Part shown: positions 20,307 to 31,159 of the stretch, one piece after another
Layout: every line of letters starts with the position of its first letter
How positions within the stretch are numbered: position 1 is the first letter of the stretch
Source of the DNA: Labrys wisconsinensis
Lineage (GTDB): Bacteria > Pseudomonadota > Alphaproteobacteria > Rhizobiales > Labraceae
Direction: 5' to 3'
Assembly (NCBI RefSeq): GCF_030814995.1
Contig: NZ_JAUSVX010000010.1
Location: forward strand, 62,001 to 126,000
Length of the DNA: 64,000 bases
Position numbers and translations under genes: made by a program
The notes under the pieces: model-generated
Told to the model about the DNA's origin: nothing
The model's input: the letters and a program-made list of their open reading frames with translations, nothing else
The model's database searches: none

Positions 20307-21401
20307 TCACGCGAGAAAGGGGTAGTCGGTGTAGCCGAGCGCTCCCGTCGCGTACCAGCCCTCGCGCCGCGGCTCGACGATCTCGGCCGAACGGGCGATC
20401 CGGGCGACGAGGTCGGGATTGGCGAGGAAGGCCCGGCCGAACGTGATCGCCTGCGCCTCGCCGGTGGCGAGCAGCTCGGCGCCTTGGGCAATGGTGAGGC
20501 CGCCGTTGGCGACGAGCGGTCCGCCGTAGTTCGGGCGCAGCGCGGCCAGAATGAGCTCGAGCTTCGAATTGCCGAACCAGCCATCCATGTCGGCAAAGTG
20601 GAGATAGCCGGCCTCCGCCTGGTCCAGCCTGCGCGCGAGATCGCCATATGTGGCGGAAGGGTCGGGGTCCCGCGTGTTGTTGTAGCTCGCATACGGCGAT
20701 ACCCGAACGCCGATGCGGCCGCGCGGGAGTTCCGACGCGATGGCCTCGAACACGTCCATGACGAAGCGGGCGCGGTTCTCCACGCTGCCGCCATAGGCAT
20801 CCTCGCGCCGGTTGAGGGTGGGTGACAGGAATTGATGCGGCAGGTAGCCGTTTGCGGCATGGATCTCGACGCCGTCGAAGCCGGCGGCCCTGGCGTTGGT
20901 CGCCGCGCGCGCATAGTCGGCAACCGTCCGCGCAATATCGTCCGCGGTCATCGCCCGCGACGGCGTGGCGGCGATCTTGACATAGGGCCCCCGGCTCAAG
21001 AGGCCATAGGTATCGAGGGCGGCAAGATCGTCGTTCACGCCGCTCGGCGACAAGGGCTGGCGCCCACCGAGGAGGCCAGCAGCGCCGATCCGGCCGCAAT
21101 GCCACAATTGGCAGAAGATGCGGCCGCCCTCGTCGTGAACCGCCTCCGTCACCGGCTTCCAGGCCTCGACCTGCTCGGAGGTGAAAATGCCCGGCGCCCG
21201 ATCGAAGCCGCAGGTGTCGTCGTTGACGTAGGTGCCCTCGCTGATGATCAGGCCCGCGGTCGCGCGTTGGCGGTAATATTCGGCCATGAGCCCGATCGGC
21301 ACGGCGTCCGACGTGGCGCGAGCCCGGGTCAACGCCGGCATCCAGACCCGGTTCGCGAATTCCAGGTCGCCGATCCGCAGTGAATCGAAATAGCTCGCCA
21401 T
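20307..21401 (-). CDS. Old Yellow Enzyme-family NADH:flavin oxidoreductase (NemA-like)
   Basis: A 364-residue FMN-dependent TIM barrel. RVWMPALTRARA, the FMN-binding CQLWHCGR, substrate-binding HAANGYLPHQFLSP, the Arg region RIGVRVSPY and the closing ITFGRAFLANPDLVARI follow the order of classical ene-reductases (NemA, morphinone reductase). Such enzymes reduce activated C=C bonds, nitro groups or quinones with NAD(P)H. A second, different OYE-fold gene is divergent at 21770. The start at 21401 (MASYFDS) fits family N-termini. No regulator is adjacent except the AraC-type gene. Confidence 0.87.
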   Translation of the reverse strand: MASYFDSLRIGDLEFANRVWMPALTRARATSDAVPIGLMAEYYRQRATAGLIISEGTYVNDDTCGFDRAPGIFTSEQVEAWKPVTEAVHDEGGRIFCQLWHCGRIGAAGLLGGRQPLSPSGVNDDLAALDTYGLLSRGPYVKIAATPSRAMTADDIARTVADYARAATNARAAGFDGVEIHAANGYLPHQFLSPTLNRREDAYGGSVENRARFVMDVFEAIASELPRGRIGVRVSPYASYNNTRDPDPSATYGDLARRLDQAEAGYLHFADMDGWFGNSKLELILAALRPNYGGPLVANGGLTIAQGAELLATGEAQAITFGRAFLANPDLVARIARSAEIVEPRREGWYATGALGYTDYPFLA

Positions 21402-21769
21402 ACCTCTGCTCCAGGTCGAACGCATCGACCACATGGTCGCTGGCTCGGGGCGCCTTCGGTGTCAGGCCGTCGACACGGGGCTTACGTCCGCAACCTAGCC
21501 GGGCGGATCGGATCGAGCTTGACCGACCCGGCCAACCGTATGACTGGGAATGCCAATCTCGGGGAGGCAAACGGCAAGGCCCGCACGGCGGGCGCCGCGA
21601 CGGCAGGACGCCGTCGCTCCCGGCGACAGTCCGGTTTGGCGATCGTGTCCCAGCATTTGGCATGCTCGGACCAGCGGACGATCGCTCCTGCAGGCAAGAT
21701 GGCCCAGGCAATGCAGATGCGTCGGTCCGGTTGCCGGCCGCATTCCATCGGTTTCAAAGGTCAAGGAAC
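21402..21769. other. 368-base divergent region between two OYE-family genes
   Basis: No gene is supported: frames that are open through it lack ribosome sites and continue as extensions of the neighbouring genes. It must contain the two promoters. No palindrome of note was found. Confidence 0.4.
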
Positions 21770-22816
21770 ATGGTCAGCCAGGTCTTCACGCCGTTCACCC
21801 TGCGCGGCATGACGCTGCGCAACCGCATCGTCATGTCGCCGATGCTGATGTATCGCGGCCAGGACGACGGCATGCTCAACGAGCATCTCTACGTCCATTA
21901 TGCAGCCCGCGCGCTCGGCGGTGTCGCCATGATCGGGACGGAAGTGCTCGCGGTCGAGCCGCGGGGGCGGATCAGCGCCAGGGATCTCGGCCTCTGGAGC
22001 GACGACCAGGCCAGGGGGCTCCAGCGCCTCGTCGATTTCGTGCAGTCCTGCGGCGTGAGGATCTTCGCCCAGCTGGCTCATGCCGGACGCAAATCCCATC
22101 TCGCTGAGACCGCCATCGGCCCATCGGCCATCGCCTATGACGACACGCTCGGCCCCCCCAGCGAGGCAACGCTCGCGGATATCCGGGAGGTGATCGACAA
22201 GTTTCGTTTAGCGGCGATGCGCGCCGCGGCAGCAGGCTTCGACGCCCTGGAGATCCACGCCGCCAACGGCTACCTCCTGCACGAATTCCTGGCGCCCGTC
22301 GCCAACGCCCGCAGCGACCGCTATGGCGGCTCGCTGGAAAACCGCATGCGCCTGCCGCTGGAAGTGGTCGAGGCGGTCCGCTCGGTCTGGCCCGACGAGA
22401 AGCCTTTGCTCTATCGCATCTGCGCCGCGGATTTCGGCACGAACGGAGTGAGCGAGGAAGACTCCGACGCGCTGGCGCTCGAGCTCGCCAGCCGCGGCGT
22501 CGATCTGATCGACGTGCAGGCCGGCAATATCCTGCCCGGCTTCGCCGGGACCGTCTATCCCGGATACCAGACGCCCTATGCCGATCGGCTCAGGAAGGTC
22601 TCGGGGCTGCCCACCGCGACCACGGGCTCGATTGCCGCGATCGATCTCGCCGAAGAAATCGTCGGCAGCGGGCGGGCCGACCTGATCTTCATGGGGCGCA
22701 CCCTGCTGCGTGATCCCTTCTGGCCGATCCGCGCGGCCAGGGAGGCGGGCGCCGAGCTGGAGCTTCCGATCGCCACCTATGCCCGGGCGACCGGACCGTT
22801 CGAGCGCGGCTTCTGA
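21770..22816 (+). CDS. Old Yellow Enzyme-family flavin oxidoreductase (YqjM/dienoyl-CoA-reductase-like branch)
   Basis: A 348-residue FMN-binding TIM barrel. TPFTLRGMTLRNRIVMSPM at the N-terminus, FAQLAHAGRKS, EIHAANGYLLHEFLAPVAN and SDRYGGSLENRMRLPLEVV are hallmark blocks; MGRTLLRDPFWPIRAA closes the FMN phosphate site. The SPM and AHAGRKS patterns place it in the YqjM-like (class III) branch, distinct from the NemA-like neighbour. AAGGAAC precedes the ATG. It converges on the GMC gene with an 18-base gap. Substrate unknown; enone reduction in aromatic or terpenoid breakdown is possible. Confidence 0.85.
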   Translation: MVSQVFTPFTLRGMTLRNRIVMSPMLMYRGQDDGMLNEHLYVHYAARALGGVAMIGTEVLAVEPRGRISARDLGLWSDDQARGLQRLVDFVQSCGVRIFAQLAHAGRKSHLAETAIGPSAIAYDDTLGPPSEATLADIREVIDKFRLAAMRAAAAGFDALEIHAANGYLLHEFLAPVANARSDRYGGSLENRMRLPLEVVEAVRSVWPDEKPLLYRICAADFGTNGVSEEDSDALALELASRGVDLIDVQAGNILPGFAGTVYPGYQTPYADRLRKVSGLPTATTGSIAAIDLAEEIVGSGRADLIFMGRTLLRDPFWPIRAAREAGAELELPIATYARATGPFERGF

Positions 22817-22833: not shown

Positions 22834-24492
22834 TCAGGCTCTTTCCACCTCCCGAGCCGGCAGCGGTCGAGCGGCTGCGAGGCCGCGGATCAGGTCCGCG
22901 GCCTTCTCCGCGATCATGACGATCGGCGCGGTGGTGTTGCCGCGCACGACCTTCGGCATGACCGACCCGTCGACGACCCGCAGGCCGTCGACGCCGCGCA
23001 GCTTCAAGCTCAGGTCCACTGCAGACTCCGGTCCCGGCCCCATGGCGCAGGTCGAGGTCGGATGAAGCGCGGTCTTCGCGGCCGACAGGACATAGTCGGT
23101 CAGCTCGGCCCGGGATGCGCCGATCTTCGGCCCGGGCAGCACCTCGCCGGCCATGTAGCGCGCAAGCGAGGGCGCCGCGATGATGCGACGGGACAGCACG
23201 ATGCCGTTGACGAGGTTCTCGACGTCCGTCTCGTGCAGAAAATTCCCCCGGACGACCGGCATGTCGGCCGGATCAGTGCTCCGCAACGTGACCGTGCCCC
23301 GCGAATGGCAGGTCAGGCACAGCGGGGCGAGCGAGAAGCGGTGCTCCTGGGGCGGGACCTCGCCCCAGGCCGCCGAGGATGCGGCAAAGGCATTGAGCTG
23401 GATGTCGGGACGGCCGTCGCCGTCGAGATCGAAGAAGCCGCCGGCCTCGACGACGTTGGAGGCAAGCTGGCCGCTGCGGAACAGCGCCCACTGCAGGCCG
23501 TTGAGCGCGCCCTTCAACCCGCGATCCTGCCCGAGGAGACCGATCGGCGCCGCGAGGGCGGCGTCGACCGGCACGAGAAAATGGTCCTGATAATTGGTGC
23601 CGATCGCCGGAGCGTCATGGACGACGGCAATGCCGTGCTGCCGGAGCGTGGCGGCGGGCCCCACGCCCGAGAGCATCAATATCTTGGGCGTCATGAAGGA
23701 GCCGGCGCTGAGGATGATTTCGCGCCGCGCCCGGAAGACCTGCTCCGAGCCGTCGTTGCGGAGGATGGCGACCCCGACGGCGCGCCGCCCGTCGAACAGC
23801 ACGCGCCGGACGAGCGACCCGGTCCGGACGGACACATTGCCGCGCTTCAGAGCCGGCGCGAGGAAGCTGCGCGACGTGCTCGACCGCTCGCCCCGATAGC
23901 TCATGACCTGGTAGAAGCCGACGCCGTCCTGATGCTCGCCGTTGAAGTCGTGGTTGAACGCGATCGGTGCGTTCTTGCCCGGCAGCTCCACCTCCTGCGC
24001 GGCGCGCACGAACGCCTCGGTCAGGACATGCCGATGGGCACCGTCGGAAACCCGCATCGGACCGTCGGTGCCGTGATATCGCCCGGCGAGATGGGCGTTG
24101 TTCTCGGCCTTGCGGAAATAGGGCAGGACCTCTTCGTAGGACCATCCCTTGCAACCGGCCGCCGCCCAGTCGTCATAGTCCCGTGCCTGTCCCCGGACGT
24201 AGCACATGGCGTTGACGGACGTCCCCCCGCCGAGCGTCCTCCCCTGAAGCAGCGGGAAGCGATTGCCTCTCGCGCCGGGCTCCGGCTCGGTATGGAAGAG
24301 GAACGTGCGCTTCGTGCCATGGGTCTTGAAGAAACCGCCGGTCGCGCGAATGAAGATGCTCTTGTCGTGGGGCCCCTCCTCCAGGAGAAGCACCGTCACT
24401 CCCTGGTCTTCGCCGAGGCGCGAAGCCACGACACAGCCCGCGGCGCCCGCTCCGACGACGATATAGTCGAACTCTTCTAAATCTGCGCTCAC
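22834..24492 (-). CDS. GMC-family choline-dehydrogenase-like oxidoreductase
   Basis: A 552-residue FAD flavoprotein. VVGAGAAGCVVASRL (about residues 11-25) binds ADP, LLEEGPHDKS follows, and GGTSVNAMCYVRGQARDYDDW is the GMC signature 1 region. The active-site segment TALHPTSTCAMG carries the catalytic His and GNTTAPIVMIAEKAADLI ends the domain. It oxidises a primary or secondary alcohol or sugar. The GTG at 24492 has GGAGG upstream. It is the last gene of the operon of the single-chain ABC importer (48-base gap), so it likely oxidises the imported compound. No partner subunit or cysteine cluster is seen, unlike the GMC gene at 4027. Confidence 0.85.
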   Translation of the reverse strand: MSADLEEFDYIVVGAGAAGCVVASRLGEDQGVTVLLLEEGPHDKSIFIRATGGFFKTHGTKRTFLFHTEPEPGARGNRFPLLQGRTLGGGTSVNAMCYVRGQARDYDDWAAAGCKGWSYEEVLPYFRKAENNAHLAGRYHGTDGPMRVSDGAHRHVLTEAFVRAAQEVELPGKNAPIAFNHDFNGEHQDGVGFYQVMSYRGERSSTSRSFLAPALKRGNVSVRTGSLVRRVLFDGRRAVGVAILRNDGSEQVFRARREIILSAGSFMTPKILMLSGVGPAATLRQHGIAVVHDAPAIGTNYQDHFLVPVDAALAAPIGLLGQDRGLKGALNGLQWALFRSGQLASNVVEAGGFFDLDGDGRPDIQLNAFAASSAAWGEVPPQEHRFSLAPLCLTCHSRGTVTLRSTDPADMPVVRGNFLHETDVENLVNGIVLSRRIIAAPSLARYMAGEVLPGPKIGASRAELTDYVLSAAKTALHPTSTCAMGPGPESAVDLSLKLRGVDGLRVVDGSVMPKVVRGNTTAPIVMIAEKAADLIRGLAAARPLPAREVERA

Positions 24493-24539
24493 CTGATCCT
24501 CCCATGTCCTCGGTCTTTGCGACGCGCCGGCCGTGGCCG

Positions 24540-27500
24540 CTACGCGTGGACCGTCTTGTTGCGACCGAAGCTGAACGCGCCTGCGGCAAGCAGGGTGGAG
24601 AGGCCGACCAGCCAATATTGCCACTCGACGCCGACCTGCATGAACGTCGTCGCGCTGAAGGTCGCCTGGACCAGGAGCGCGCCGAAGGCGGTGGACAGAA
24701 ACGAGCCGTATCCGCCGCTGATCACGGCACCGCCGAGAACGACGGCGGTGATGCTCATCAGCGTGAAGTTCACGCCGGCCGTTCCGGACCCGACACCGAC
24801 GGTCGCGGCCAGAACGAGACCTGCAATGCCGACCATGGCGCCGTTTGCGGCGAATGCAACGGCGGTGATCGCCCCGCGGTTCACGCCGAGCTTCTGCGCC
24901 GAGGAGCGGTCGGACCCCAGGGCGCGTATCGACCGGCCGAAATGCGTGCGAAACAGCGAGAATTCAAAGCCCAGCGCGGCCATGACCACGAGCAGCGTCA
25001 CGACCGAGACCGGGCCGATGGCGTAGAGCAGCGTATCGACCAGCGCACTGCTGATCGTGCCTCCTGGCAGCGGCCGCAACGACAGGGACAGCCCCTGCAG
25101 GGCGAAGAACGCCGCGAGCGTCACGACGATGGAGGGCAGCTTCAGCCCGACGACGACCAGGCCTTGCAGAAGGGCGATCACCGTCGTCACCAGGACGATC
25201 CCGACGCACGCCGCCGTGATGGCGATCGGCGAGGCGCCGTCCGGGATCCAGTAGGACGCCAGCACCACGGCAAAGCCTGCCAACGGTCCGACCGAGAAGT
25301 CGATTTCTCCAAGGATCATGAGGAAGAGCTGCCCGAAGGCGATCAACGCCAGCGTCGCGAGCTGGACCTGGAGGTTCTCGAGGTTGTAGGCGGAGAGGAA
25401 CCGGGCATTTGCCGCGGTCGCGCAGTAGAAGATCAAGGCGGAGACAAGCGACAAGGCGCCGGCCGGAAGCCACTTGCTCTCCAGAATGTGCCGGAAGCGC
25501 CCCCTGGCCGAGTCCCTGTCCTGTCGTTTCGGCAGGCCCGCGCCCGCGGTCAGGTTGGCGGCGGTGATCTCGGCATCGGAAACCCGGGCCCCGTTGAGGT
25601 CGCAGGCGATGCTGCCACGCGCCATGACCAGAACCCGGTCGCACAGGCCTTCCAGCTCGACGCCGTCCGACGAGGCGACGATGACGGTGACGCCCCGGTT
25701 CGCCAGCTCGCGCAGTTCCCGGTAGATGTCGCTCTTCGAGCCGATGTCCACGCCCTTGGTCGGCTCGTCCGCCAGGAACAGGCGGGGCCTGCCGCCGATC
25801 TCGCGGCCGACCAGGACCTTCTGCTGATTGCCGCCGGACAGCGAGGACACGCTGGCCTCTGCGGAGGCCGTCCGGATCTTCAGCTCGCGAATGGCCGACG
25901 AGACGGCCTCGCTCTCGGCGCCGCGATCGATCATCCCCAGCAGGCCGCTCGGTGCGCTCGCCCCCGCATTCAGGTTCTCGTCGACGGACAGCGACAGGAA
26001 CAGCCCTTCCCTGTGCCGGTCGTCCGGAACGAACGCGACGCCCGCGGCACGGGCCGCCGGCCGGTCGGCATAGGACAGGCTCCTGCCGTCGAGCACGATG
26101 TCGCCGGAACAGGTCTCGAGCCCGGCCAGGGCGCGGATGAGCTCGCGCTGCCCCTGCCCTTCGACGCCGGCAAGCCCGATGATCTCGCCGCGCCTGGCTT
26201 CGAACGAGACGTCATGGAACCGATGGCCGGAGAGGTTGCGCACCTCGAGCACCACCGGCATGTCGGATGCGACGGACTTTTCCGGGAAGACGTGCCCGAG
26301 GGGCCGGCCGACGATCATCCCGATGATCTCGTCATGCGTGAAGTCCGCGCGCCGGCGCGTCTCGACGAGCTCGCCGTCGCGGAGGACCGAAATGCGATCG
26401 GCGATCTCCTCGACCTCGTTCAAGCGGTGCGAGATATAGACGACCGCGACGCCCCGAGCCTTCAGATGGCGGATGAGGGCGAAGAGCTGCGCCACGTCGT
26501 CTTCCTTGAACGGCTCGGTGGGCTCGTCGAGGACGAGGATGCTCGGCTTGGAGGCCAGCGCCCGGGCGATCTCGACCACATGCCGCTGGCCGATCGAAAG
26601 GTCGGCGATCCGATCCTGCGGCGACACGCCGAGGGATCCGACGCTGACGCGATCGATCAGCGCGGATGCCCGCTCCGCGCCGCCGCTCGCGCCGAGCTCC
26701 GGGGCGGACAGGCAGAGGCATTCCAGGACCGACAGATGCGGCGGCAGCGGCGGGTGCTGGAAGGCGACCGAGATGCCGGCGGCGCGAAACAGGTTGGGAT
26801 CGGATCCGGACATGACCTCGCCGGCGATCCGCACCCGGCCCTCGCTGGCGGAAAGGACGCCGGCCGCGATGGAGATCAGGGTGCTCTTGCCGGCGCCGTT
26901 CTCGCCGATGATGGCGTGGACCTCACCCGGGAAGGCCGAGAAATCGACGCCGGCGAGCGCCGTCGTGTTGCCGAACGTCTTGCGCACGCCGTTCAGCTCG
27001 AGGATCGCCGCGGCGCCCGGAGCGGCCCGATAGGCCGAAGGACGCCGGTGAGGCGCCGGTCCGCCGTCTCGCGCCGGCCGGCGCCGTGCCTGGCGCAGGA
27101 GCTCCGGAACGGTGACGCCGACGAGGATGATCGCCGCCTGGACCATGCTCTGGACGGCATAGTCGAAGCCGAGCGAGACGACGAGCTGGTCCATGAAGAT
27201 CAGGAAGATCACGCCGATGATCGTCGAGACCACGCTGCCGCGATCCCCGTTCAGCGGGCTGCCGCCGACGATGACGGCGGCCACGGTGGTCAGCATGTAG
27301 GATTGCCCCGACAGCAGCGTCGGCGTGACGGCGAGGCCCGCCAGCATCACCCCGGCCAGGGCGAACAGGAAGCCCGCCATGGCGTAGGTGGCGACGTTGT
27401 AGCGGCCGACGCGCACGCCGAGCGCCCGCGAAGCCTCGGGGCTGACGGCGGACATGATGAATCGGCGCCCGACGGTCGTCCGCTCGATCACCCATGCCGC

Positions 27501-28052
27501 GAACAGAGCAATGAGCAGGAAGACGAAGAACAGAACGCAGATCGATCCGATCCGCAGATTGGCTGCCGCGATCAGCGGGTCGGGCGCCGCATGGACCGCG
27601 CCGCGCGAGAGGAAATAGACGCAGCCGAACAGCAGCGCGTTGCTGCCGATCGTCATGACCAGGGCGGGAACGCCCAGCCGGTTGATGACCACGCCGTTGA
27701 GCAATCCGGCGGCCGCGCCGACGAACAGGGCGGCGCCGGCATAGGCGAGCGTGGCGGCCGGCCCGGCGCCCTCCGATGGCAGCGCCGTCACGATCACGGC
27801 CGCCAGCGAGATGCTGCCGGCGACGGAAAGATCGAAGCCGCGCTGCTGGATGACGAGATGCTGGCCGATCGCGGCCACGCCGAGGACGCCGATGAACGGG
27901 GCCATCGAGACCAGCGATTCCAGGACGAGCGTGCGCGGCGCGATCATCAGGGCGATCAGCCCGAGCGCCACAAGGCCCAGAAGGGCGCGAAGGGCGGGGC
28001 GCTGCAGGAAGCCGGCGGGCTCGAGTCTGTCGAGAAGAGTGGTCAAAGCCAC
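24540..28052 (-). CDS. Single-chain ribose-type (CUT2) ABC importer: permease-ATPase-ATPase-permease fusion
   Basis: An uninterrupted 1170-residue protein joining a whole importer core. Residues about 1-335: RbsC-like permease (HLVIQQRGFDLSVAGSISL; VVSTIIGVIFLIFMDQLVV). About 355-590: first ATPase, with Walker A GENGAGKST (about 378-386), signature LSIGQ (about 484) and Walker B ILVLDEPTEP (about 507). About 600-840: second ATPase with the degenerate Walker A GVEGQGQRE expected for RbsA C-halves, signature LSGGNQQK (about 741) and LADEPTKGVD (about 763). About 855-1170: second, non-identical permease (LGEIDFSVGPLAGFAVVLA). Two Arg-rich linkers are cytoplasmic by topology. CUT2 systems normally encode RbsA and RbsC separately. 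The binding-protein gene lies upstream. Confidence 0.85.
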   Translation of the reverse strand: MALTTLLDRLEPAGFLQRPALRALLGLVALGLIALMIAPRTLVLESLVSMAPFIGVLGVAAIGQHLVIQQRGFDLSVAGSISLAAVIVTALPSEGAGPAATLAYAGAALFVGAAAGLLNGVVINRLGVPALVMTIGSNALLFGCVYFLSRGAVHAAPDPLIAAANLRIGSICVLFFVFLLIALFAAWVIERTTVGRRFIMSAVSPEASRALGVRVGRYNVATYAMAGFLFALAGVMLAGLAVTPTLLSGQSYMLTTVAAVIVGGSPLNGDRGSVVSTIIGVIFLIFMDQLVVSLGFDYAVQSMVQAAIILVGVTVPELLRQARRRPARDGGPAPHRRPSAYRAAPGAAAILELNGVRKTFGNTTALAGVDFSAFPGEVHAIIGENGAGKSTLISIAAGVLSASEGRVRIAGEVMSGSDPNLFRAAGISVAFQHPPLPPHLSVLECLCLSAPELGASGGAERASALIDRVSVGSLGVSPQDRIADLSIGQRHVVEIARALASKPSILVLDEPTEPFKEDDVAQLFALIRHLKARGVAVVYISHRLNEVEEIADRISVLRDGELVETRRRADFTHDEIIGMIVGRPLGHVFPEKSVASDMPVVLEVRNLSGHRFHDVSFEARRGEIIGLAGVEGQGQRELIRALAGLETCSGDIVLDGRSLSYADRPAARAAGVAFVPDDRHREGLFLSLSVDENLNAGASAPSGLLGMIDRGAESEAVSSAIRELKIRTASAEASVSSLSGGNQQKVLVGREIGGRPRLFLADEPTKGVDIGSKSDIYRELRELANRGVTVIVASSDGVELEGLCDRVLVMARGSIACDLNGARVSDAEITAANLTAGAGLPKRQDRDSARGRFRHILESKWLPAGALSLVSALIFYCATAANARFLSAYNLENLQVQLATLALIAFGQLFLMILGEIDFSVGPLAGFAVVLASYWIPDGASPIAITAACVGIVLVTTVIALLQGLVVVGLKLPSIVVTLAAFFALQGLSLSLRPLPGGTISSALVDTLLYAIGPVSVVTLLVVMAALGFEFSLFRTHFGRSIRALGSDRSSAQKLGVNRGAITAVAFAANGAMVGIAGLVLAATVGVGSGTAGVNFTLMSITAVVLGGAVISGGYGSFLSTAFGALLVQATFSATTFMQVGVEWQYWLVGLSTLLAAGAFSFGRNKTVHA

Positions 28053-28179
28053 ACCCTTGTCGTCTGGAGTGCGTTTGCGCGGGAAGACCGGCCGGCGGCG
28101 GGAAGCTGCCCCGACCCATGACCTCGGCGCGCCGTGCGCGCCTCGTCCCCCAGGCGAGGCGGCCGTCCCGGTCCGGTCG

Positions 28180-29313
28180 TCACTTCTTGAAGACGGCGAT
28201 CAGCTGGTCGCGGCTCAGGCGCGAGGAGGCGAGCGAGACGTCCGGCGGGACGTCGTGGTCGCATTTCGGCGCCAGCCCGAGGTCCTTGGAGGTGCTGTCG
28301 ACCAGCAGGCTGACGTTCACCACGCTCGGCTCCGGGCTGTCGATCTGGTTCACGGCCGCAAGGCCCTTGCGCAGAGCCAGGCGATCGATCCAGGTCCAGG
28401 AGCTGGTGAAGCCGATCTGGTACCTGGGCTCGCCGTCATGGTTGTCGACCCAGAAGCATTCGGCGCCATTGGCGTCCAGGCCCGTCACTGGAACCAGCGG
28501 GCGTCCCGCCGTCTTGAACGCACGCAGCGCTCCCATCACGCCGGCGCCGTAGTCGGAGTACATGCCGTCGATCTGCGGGTATTTGGCCAGAAGCGCCGTC
28601 GTGACCTTCTGATAGTAGGCCGGATCCCAGTTCGAGATCACCGGCCCTTCGAGGACGTTGATGCCCGGATTGGCGGCGAAGACCTTCTTCCAGCCGGGCA
28701 GCTGGGCCGCGGTCTGCGGCGCACCGGGCGCGCCGCCCCATACGATGACGTTGCCCTTGCCCTGCAGCTTGTCCACCAGGAACTGGGCATAGACGCTCGC
28801 CATCTGCTCCTGGTTCGGCGTGACCACCATCGTGTAGTCGACACCCGCCTTTCCCGGGAAGTCCACGCCGACCTCGACCGGGATCACCACCGAGCCGGCC
28901 TTCACGGCGTCGCGCATCGCCGGAATCGCGGCTGCCCCCGAGTCGGGCTCGACGATGATGATGTCGTAGCCCTGCGCGGCCAGCGAGCGGATATTGGCGA
29001 GCTCCTTCTCGGGGTTGCCGCCCGCATCGGCGTAGCCCACCTCGGTGATGTTCGGGCACTTCCTGGCCTCGTCCTCCAGCTCGGCGCGCTTGATCTGGCG
29101 ATGGGCGTTCACCGCGCCGACCGAGAGCGCCACCCGGATGGGCTTGGTGCCGCAGAAATGCGTCGCATCGACGAACTCGGACTCGTTCCCGACCTTTCCC
29201 AGCGAGAGATCGGCAGCCCGGGCGGCCGGGGCTGCACCGAGGGCGCCCATGGCGCCCAGGAGAAGTGCGGCGGACATGCACGCAGACGAACGGCGTTTCG
29301 GCATCGATGACAT
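28180..29313 (-). CDS. Sugar ABC transporter periplasmic binding protein (CUT2/ribose type)
   Basis: A 377-residue binding protein with an N-terminal signal (MSSMPKRRSS, hydrophobic AALLLGAMGALG, cleavage near ARA-AD). The mature part has the periplasmic-binding 4 fold pattern: GKPIR-like strand IRVALSVGAVNAHRQIK, AAQGYDIIIVEPDSGAAAIPA, GVDYTMVVTPNQEQMA, GNVIVWGGAPGAPQTAA and DGMYSDYGAGVMGALRA. Two Cys (HFCGT and RKCPN regions) could form a disulfide. The ATG at 29313 follows GGGGA. It should deliver substrate to the fused importer encoded 127 bases downstream. The ligand is not evident; it need not be a simple sugar. Confidence 0.83.
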   Translation of the reverse strand: MSSMPKRRSSACMSAALLLGAMGALGAAPAARAADLSLGKVGNESEFVDATHFCGTKPIRVALSVGAVNAHRQIKRAELEDEARKCPNITEVGYADAGGNPEKELANIRSLAAQGYDIIIVEPDSGAAAIPAMRDAVKAGSVVIPVEVGVDFPGKAGVDYTMVVTPNQEQMASVYAQFLVDKLQGKGNVIVWGGAPGAPQTAAQLPGWKKVFAANPGINVLEGPVISNWDPAYYQKVTTALLAKYPQIDGMYSDYGAGVMGALRAFKTAGRPLVPVTGLDANGAECFWVDNHDGEPRYQIGFTSSWTWIDRLALRKGLAAVNQIDSPEPSVVNVSLLVDSTSKDLGLAPKCDHDVPPDVSLASSRLSRDQLIAVFKK

Positions 29314-29918: not shown

Positions 29919-30800
29919 CTACCGAGGGGCGAGGAGCGGCAACCTGGCCAGCGCGTCGCGCAGCTCGAGCGTGTCCCAGGGCATGTGCTCGGCGATCGCG
30001 AGTCCGACGACGTCGCAGGAAGCGGCGACGTCGCCGAGCAGGCGCACCACCTGCTCGAGGGTCATCCGCCCCCGCGGCACGCCCTCGAACGCCCCGGGCG
30101 GCAGGGCCGGCTTGTTGAACAGGAGCGGGCGGAACCGTGCGGGATCGAGAACGTCCAGGTCGAAATGCACCGCGACATGGGTGATCCCTTCCTCGGCGAT
30201 CCAGTCCATCACCGGCTTGGAGCTGTCCGCCAGGCTGGCGGAGCCGGCATGCCGCAGCCCCAGCCCGTCGATCACCGCGGCCTCGACCGGCATCCAGGCG
30301 TCGAGCCCGGCATACATCACCCGCGAGGGCGCGATGGGACGCTCCACCTCGCGCGAGAAATCGGCATCGCCCTTGCCGAGCAGCGCGCCGAGGACGTGAG
30401 CATGGGCGTGGGCGTAGTCTTTCGGGCTCATGACGTCGGGATGGGCGTCCACCCAGAGCACGCCGAGCTTTCCCGCATAGCGCAGGTTGAGATAGGCCAT
30501 CGGCGCCAGATCGACGAGGCAATCGCCCCCCAGGGTGATGATGCGGTCCGGCTTGTGCTTCTCGATCGCCCGCCGGGCCGCCCTGGCCTGCTCCAGGAGC
30601 GCCGCCCGCGCCACGACGCCATTCTCCACGGCGAGCGTTTCGCCGGGCTCGGGCAGGGGAACGGGAACGGTCTCGACCGGGCCGCCGGGTGCGGGGGCGA
30701 GCCACTGCAGCAGCTGCGACCCGAAATGGTAGCCGGGATCGTTGCCGCCCTGCCATTGCGGCATGTTCAGGCGCAGGGTGGTGCCAGCCGACCGGGTCAT
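29919..30800 (-). CDS. Arginase/agmatinase-family protein with altered first metal site
   Basis: A 293-residue ureohydrolase-fold protein. Metal-site blocks are in order: GGDCLVD (about residue 91), WVDAHPDV (about 117) and HFDLDVLDP (about 220). The second and third match canonical DAHxD and DxDxxDP. The first has Cys where arginases have the ligand His (GGDHS), so it either binds metal differently or has another reaction; guanidino or formimino hydrolysis remains possible. Its ATG overlaps the stop of the EthD-like gene by four bases. The 3' end faces the transport operon promoter region. Confidence 0.75.
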   Translation of the reverse strand: MTRSAGTTLRLNMPQWQGGNDPGYHFGSQLLQWLAPAPGGPVETVPVPLPEPGETLAVENGVVARAALLEQARAARRAIEKHKPDRIITLGGDCLVDLAPMAYLNLRYAGKLGVLWVDAHPDVMSPKDYAHAHAHVLGALLGKGDADFSREVERPIAPSRVMYAGLDAWMPVEAAVIDGLGLRHAGSASLADSSKPVMDWIAEEGITHVAVHFDLDVLDPARFRPLLFNKPALPPGAFEGVPRGRMTLEQVVRLLGDVAASCDVVGLAIAEHMPWDTLELRDALARLPLLAPR

Positions 30801-31159
30801 TGTCCGGCCTCTGCGCGGACCGGGAAGACGCGGCGATGCGTGAGGGGAAGCGTCACCATGGTCTTGAAGTCGATGAAGGCCCGGCTGTCCTCCACGACGT
30901 CCGGCAGGGGCCAGGCGGCAGCCGCGGCCTCGGGGCTCTCGAAAGCGAGGATGGACAAGGCGTCATAGGCAGGGCCCTCCGCCGGGACGTACGCGTCGCC
31001 GAGGCCCGGAGGCCGGGTCGGATAATGATCGTAGGAGACCAGGCCGCGATCTTTGAGGACCCTGACCATCAAGGGGCCGTGGACTGTCTCGTAATACTCG
31101 CGGAAAGCGTCGAGCGACATGCCGGGGGCGCGTCGAAACACGTAAGCGACGATGTGCAT
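30797..31159 (-). CDS. EthD-domain protein
   Basis: A 120-residue dimeric alpha-beta-barrel protein. HIVAYVFRRAPGMSLDAFREYY, TVHGPLMVR (the EthD/HGPL motif) and YDALSILAFESPEAAAAAW fit the EthD family, whose members assist or carry out oxidative or decarboxylating steps in ether and aromatic breakdown. Translationally coupled to the arginase-like gene behind it (4-base overlap). Two ATCGGAC direct repeats lie 44 bases upstream and may regulate the pair. The substrate is unknown. Confidence 0.75.
   Translation of the reverse strand: MHIVAYVFRRAPGMSLDAFREYYETVHGPLMVRVLKDRGLVSYDHYPTRPPGLGDAYVPAEGPAYDALSILAFESPEAAAAAWPLPDVVEDSRAFIDFKTMVTLPLTHRRVFPVRAEAGQ

Follow-up and report, generated by a model that had tools for sequence, protein, structure and literature searches.

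A probable single-chain CUT2-type importer core in Labrys wisconsinensis and its two-gene relatives

Prokaryotic ATP-binding cassette (ABC) importers are normally built from separate chains. A gene within a 64,000-nucleotide stretch of the Labrys wisconsinensis genome (contig NZ_JAUSVX010000010.1, positions 62,001 to 126,000; the whole stretch is hereafter called the window) raises the question of whether the entire core of such a machine is made there as one polypeptide. On the minus strand, from 28052 to 24540, lies a single frame of 1170 amino acids (aa) with a GTG start, a stop codon at 24540-24542 and no internal stop; the stop-to-stop frame extends to 28199. Translation, Pfam and NCBIfam agree that it reads permease-ATPase-ATPase-permease, as the initial annotation, made from the sequence alone, had it, though without naming a strand. 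The product is very probably the membrane-spanning and ATP-driven core of a CUT2-type importer that depends on a binding protein, with all four core domains in one chain, and the gene is a real, rare and probably recurrent fusion variant, a small step from the two-gene form of most relatives.

24540..28052, minus strand: predicted four-domain fused CUT2 importer core, 1170 aa, GTG start (translation, Pfam, NCBIfam)
27093..27995, minus strand: permease 1, residues 20-320, PF02653 (best Pfam stretch 50-311; helical domain in the model)
27012..27092, minus strand: linker 1, residues 321-347, the first joint (joint sequences; low model confidence at 325-345)
26298..27011, minus strand: ATPase half 1, residues 348-585 (Walker A, Walker B and H-loop intact; LSIGQ at the signature position)
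25539..26261, minus strand: ATPase half 2, residues 598-838 (GVEGQGQR, lacking lysine, at the Walker A position; canonical signature LSGGNQQ)
25455..25538, minus strand: linker 2, residues 839-866, the second joint (low model confidence at 837-851 and 853-855)
24543..25454, minus strand: permease 2, residues 867-1170, PF02653 (PF02653 stretch; alignment to permease 1; hydrophobic segments)

Domains, motifs and predicted structure

PF02653 (BPD_transp_2) and PF00005 (ABC_tran) each match the protein in two stretches, with whole-protein E values of 3.3e-46 and 1.4e-46 respectively. The NCBIfam models for AraH and LsrC also each match it twice, while residues 347-836 align to RbsA/XylG/AraG-type models over nearly the full model length (best E 9.8e-119). 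The two PF02653 stretches bear out the claim that two different permease halves are present in one CUT2-type polypeptide. None of the 25 best NCBIfam models reaches its curated cut-off (the top score is 397 bits against 699), and the protein lies under the cut-off of each of the named CUT2 equivalogs RbsA, XylG, AraG, AlsA, MglA, LsrA and YtfR. This implies that it belongs to the family, but not to any named transporter. The features of CUT2 (Transporter Classification 3.A.1.2) found here are an RbsA-type double ATPase, PF02653 permeases, a Peripla_BP_4 protein alongside, and a second Walker A without lysine together with one canonical signature; the placement of ATPase and permease on separate chains, which is usual for CUT2 without defining it, is absent from the window's single frame.

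ATPase half 1 has an intact Walker A motif, GENGAGKST starting at residue 383, whose GK is kept in all 28 rows of a motif alignment that includes paralogues. The same 28 rows all contain LSGGNQQ in half 2 and all lack the lysine at the half 2 Walker A position. Both motif descriptions in the initial annotation, of an intact Walker A with LSIGQ in the first ATPase and a degenerate Walker A in the second, are correct, but the view of LSIGQ as unusual is not: relatives vary at that position (LSLAQ, LTLAQ, LSLGQ, LTIGQ and similar), and at least 14 of the 28 rows read L-x-LAQ. E. coli AraG presumably has LSIGQ as well. The motif set implies one competent and one degenerate ATP site, an ordinary arrangement described for RbsA and NupO in PMC11466899. 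Close relatives have DEPTEPF or DEPTEPL after the Walker B of ATPase 1 where paralogues have DEPTSAL-like forms; this may be a changed D-loop that marks the subfamily of the window gene.

The plus strand also carries an open frame, of 1205 codons (24504-28121), which is most likely a by-product of high-GC (guanine plus cytosine) coding sequence; Pfam, the relatives and the structure model support the minus-strand reading.

An AlphaFold prediction for the whole chain, a check proposed at the outset, gave a confident model, with a mean predicted local distance difference test score (pLDDT) of 84.6 and a predicted template modelling score (pTM) of 0.82. The pLDDT falls below 50 solely at residues 1-13, 325-345, 837-851, 853-855 and 1166-1170, which are the two ends and the two linkers. 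Among the matches listed by Foldseek (the best 50 of 1511), the top ones are double-ATPase chains of mycobacterial Opp/Dpp importers, with DppD at a target template modelling (TM) score of 0.70-0.72, and single-chain exporters such as ABCB1 reach at most 0.35. The best structural matches, DppABCD/OppABCD of Mycobacterium tuberculosis, resemble the window protein in having both ATPase halves in one chain, but their permeases are of another kind and lie on separate chains.

The two permease halves would pair as the path across the inner membrane, with the two ATPase halves clamped below them, and the adjoining binding protein would deliver the substrate. ATP would be hydrolysed at the one competent site, where the LSGGNQQ of half 2 complements the H-loop and the Walker A and B motifs of half 1, while the other site, pairing the lysine-free Walker A of half 2 with the LSIGQ of half 1, would be structural. 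The chain likely works like other CUT2 importers, with a single competent ATP site, and its continuity would imply a fixed subunit ratio.

Which joint is unusual

The architecture was compared across 23 relatives, defined by at least 40% identity to the window in a trimmed joined alignment and comprising 19 of 30 initial loci together with L039-L042; as the initial loci were found through six short peptide patterns, this set is a sample. The second joint, from ATPase to permease 2, lies in one frame in all 23 (the L017 contig stops within permease 2), whereas the first, from permease 1 to ATPase 1, is fused in three (L010, L040 and L041) and split in 20. Hence only the first joint is special, and the claim that the fusion is unusual survives for the first joint and fails for the second. 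Whether orthologues keep the fusion, a question raised initially, likewise has a divided answer: the refuting condition named there, a split of orthologues at one and the same point, applies to 20 of the 23 at the first joint but not to all. The exceptions are a Thioclava pair (L040 and L041) and L010, a Hyphomicrobiales metagenome-assembled genome (MAG). Three of the split relatives (L009 from Variovorax, L011, and L031 from Pseudooceanicola) have both genes in the same frame with one TGA between them; the other 17 have the two genes in different frames. Apart from the split joint, L031 and L009, 53 and 52% identical to the window respectively, have the same domain order as the window, and a binding protein.

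Beyond these 23, two loci (L043 and L054, 38% identical) encode ATPase-ATPase-permease with an additional permease past the binding protein, and L055 has the same fusion with an additional permease downstream. ATPase and permeases are in separate frames at L021, L022, L024, L026 and L027, and also in a second system that L015 and L023 each carry on the opposite strand, which shows the ATPase-permease fusion to mark a subfamily, not CUT2 overall. The L028 and L034 contigs break off, and L030, L035, L036 and L037 gave an ATPase-only match or no architecture. Seven paralogous loci in the same genome were also examined (L002-L008): four encode ATPase-ATPase-permease (L002, L004, L005 and L006), one permease-ATPase-ATPase (L007:1456-3969), and two are without such a fusion. 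Partial fusion is frequent among relatives and paralogues, and the complete single-chain core would have arisen when a further joint closed in a subfamily whose genes were already partly fused.

The genome is very rich in RbsA-type ATPases and has an unusually large CUT2-type set: approximately 87 places span both RbsA-type ATPase halves (a hand count of listed places, with 150 of 602 candidates scored). A possible permease-permease fusion is seen at G000:C1:1163183-1165204, where two adjacent PF02653 matches share a frame and are each reported with an open frame of 777 aa. The search of the genome for PF02653 scored 150 of 220 candidates, among which the window's own domains were not listed, so the genome may hold other four-domain fusions.

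The fused gene is rare. Among the order's other genomes, one of 198 has an orthologue at E 1e-180, and this is L039, in split form; none of the 239 other genomes of the class has one at E 1e-190, a limit that would also miss L039 (1.3e-186). Searches of 247 further genomes from the family of L010, with the L010 protein as query, and of 247 from that of L031, with the window protein, found no additional copy. As two or three candidates were scored per genome in the scans of the order, the class and the relatives' families, these counts are lower bounds. A collection of 72,556 plasmid records yielded 20 at E 1e-100, of which three cover at least 80% of the query in one place, two from Thioclava (fused) and one from Shinella (split). 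In both Thioclava plasmids the gene is one annotated coding sequence of 3543 bp, and the proteins (XBA79638.1 in CP155823.1 and WP_339114689.1 in NZ_CP149933.1), which have four domains in one frame like that of the window, are 62.2 and 62.3% identical to it in the trimmed alignment. The two Thioclava frames differ at 3 of 1235 positions, and hence are counted as one case. Their records are annotated only as ATP-binding cassette domain-containing protein and state neither architecture nor function. Neighbouring genes for the binding, EthD and arginase-family proteins are common to the Thioclava loci and the window, while the genes downstream of the core differ.

Among open-licence PubMed Central papers, judged by title and the start of the abstract, no description of a four-domain CUT2 fusion was found. 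A survey of Brucella ABC systems presents, in the portion available, monosaccharide systems whose ATPase is a protein apart from the permease (PMC2821768). The novelty initially attached to a CUT2 channel of two permeases is not upheld, as CUT2-like systems with two different permeases are already known. The RbsABC and NupNOPQ systems of Bacillus subtilis resemble the window in carrying both ATPase halves on a single chain, one of the two sites being degenerate, and NupO works with two different permeases, NupP and NupQ; in both systems, unlike the window, the permeases are on separate chains (PMC11466899).

Origin of the fusion and competing explanations

Three trees with ultrafast bootstrap were built from 28 rows, of the joined alignment, of permease 1 alone and of ATPase-ATPase-permease alone (L003 and the permease 1 of L004 were left out, and no permease 1 was found for L002). 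The window and Thioclava form one clade with support 100 in all three, and L010 lies outside it in all three. L010 clusters with split relatives, with support 99, in the joined and ATPase-ATPase-permease trees, its position in the permease 1 tree being weak (49). The first joint was thus probably closed at least twice, two independent closures being the simplest reading of the trees. The ancestor would have had two genes in the same frame, permease and ATPase-ATPase-permease, as L031 and L009 still have; loss of the stop codon between them would have turned the old N-terminal tail of the ATPase protein into a disordered linker. One such loss would predate the divergence of the window and Thioclava genes, and a second probably took place in the L010 lineage. 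On balance it is favoured that an importer lineage became a single-chain permease-ATPase-ATPase-permease machine at least twice, giving a natural single-chain type II importer.

Several observations weigh against the single-chain importer interpretation. No orthologue reaches E 1e-200 or 1e-180 in the four other genomes of the genus (genus and family here being the same five genomes), which suggests a possible outside origin for the window gene. Thioclava contributes two near-identical records and L010 one short MAG contig; moreover, the joints of Thioclava and L010 contain in-frame GTG or TTG codons, which are possible starts of a separate protein. The GC content of linker 1 by codon position is 0.93/0.85/0.70, against 0.62-0.71/0.46-0.50/0.88-0.91 in the domains, a pattern that would fit a young, little-constrained linker. 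The alignment behind the structure model has 23 rows, of which only four, including two that read through the TGA between neighbouring genes, contain all four domains, and one further row, L007, is permease-ATPase-ATPase; hence the alignment is shallow for permease 1. The top Foldseek matches rest on the ATPase halves, and neither phmmer nor a profile search found a solved relative of the permease, the two weak profile matches being cytochrome oxidase subunits (E 0.45 and 0.48), so the permease pairing is modelled without an experimental template.

The linkers of Thioclava and L010 are also atypical in codon-position GC.

Alternatively, the chain might be made whole and then cut after synthesis to give the usual multi-chain complex. 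Linker 1, with its many Arg, Pro and Ala residues, is predicted to be disordered and so could be accessible to a protease. However, neither a cleavage site nor a protease is indicated, and a similar number of residues separates the last permease anchor from Walker A in the window, Thioclava and L010 (82, 79 and 82 respectively), which leaves cleavage an unlikely account. Separate translation of an ATPase protein from the window gene is also unlikely, because no ATG, GTG or TTG codon occurs in frame from residue 304 to residue 355, and the next start candidate, a GTG at residue 356, falls inside the first strand of ATPase 1 in the model.

The history of the joint could also be reversed, with a single ancestral four-domain gene having been split many times in place of two independent fusions. 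In favour of this, the fused forms are scattered over the tree, and fission requires just one stop codon. It would nevertheless need several independent splits against two fusions, in 17 of the 20 split relatives the two genes end in different frames, and a branch with support 100 lies between L010 and the window clade; an ancestral fusion is consequently regarded as improbable, and repeated closure of the first joint is retained as the preferred history.

Where the listed matches to solved structures include single-chain ABC proteins of four domains, these are exporters such as ABCB1, which might suggest that a CUT2-like ATPase-permease fusion has here been turned to export or signalling. Eukaryotic full ABC exporters of the ABCB1 type do have their four domains in one chain, but in the order transmembrane domain, nucleotide-binding domain, transmembrane domain, nucleotide-binding domain, with an exporter fold and no binding protein. 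In the window and 22 of the 23 relatives a sugar-type binding protein is encoded near the core (the L010 contig begins at the core), both permeases belong to PF02653, and the low TM scores of the ABCB1-like matches have been given above. An exporter is accordingly rejected as highly improbable, in favour of an importer.

The least credible explanation, an assembly or sequencing error joining two genes through a missed stop codon or frameshift at linker 1, would suit the split joint of 20 of the 23 relatives and the odd codon-position GC of the linker, but is rejected because two Thioclava plasmid records, in one clade with the window, have the same joint open, so that accidental loss of a stop in just this assembly is very improbable; the open joint of the L010 contig and the absence of in-frame start codons across the window's own joint also speak against it.

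Neighbouring genes and significance

The binding protein reported alongside the core was recovered by Pfam, and the other neighbours point away from a plain sugar pathway.

28180..29313, minus strand: periplasmic binding protein, Peripla_BP_4, 377 aa, directly upstream of the core (Pfam E 2.3e-34)
29919..30800, minus strand: arginase-family protein (PF00491; common to the Thioclava loci)
30797..31159, minus strand: EthD-domain protein (PF07110; common to the Thioclava loci)
22834..24522, minus strand: GMC oxidoreductase, directly downstream of the core (PF00732/PF05199 found on the longer frame 22834-24624; start codon unsettled)

Further neighbours encode two Old-Yellow-type oxidoreductases and SnoaL-like, ABM, nitronate-monooxygenase/FabK-like and citryl-CoA-lyase-like proteins. 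The two Old-Yellow-type genes (20307-22816) are on opposite strands, with long overlapping frames as listed. Homologues of the GMC and Old-Yellow-type genes occur at both the Pseudooceanicola (L031) and Variovorax (L009) loci, the Old-Yellow-type one being in two frames at the latter, and L031 also has a SnoaL homologue. The GMC, Old-Yellow-type, nitronate-monooxygenase-like, citryl-CoA-lyase-like and EthD genes together suggest a small unsaturated, alcohol-bearing or aromatic compound over a plain sugar, and the substrate is perhaps other than a sugar. A CUT2-like cluster of Rhodococcus has been tied to phthalate-ester degradation in the accessible text of PMC13188901; if this is right, it suggests by analogy that CUT2-like systems need not be limited to sugars.

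The normal construction of importers from separate chains makes asymmetry between two permeases, and between two ATP sites, hard to study. In a core that is naturally a single chain the arrangement is set, so that each permease or ATPase half can be mutated alone. Stepwise fusion is also visible in this subfamily, the ATPase-permease joint being closed in all the relatives examined and the joint to the first permease only rarely. For annotation, proteins of 1150-1200 residues labelled just as ATP-binding cassette domain-containing may be whole importer cores.

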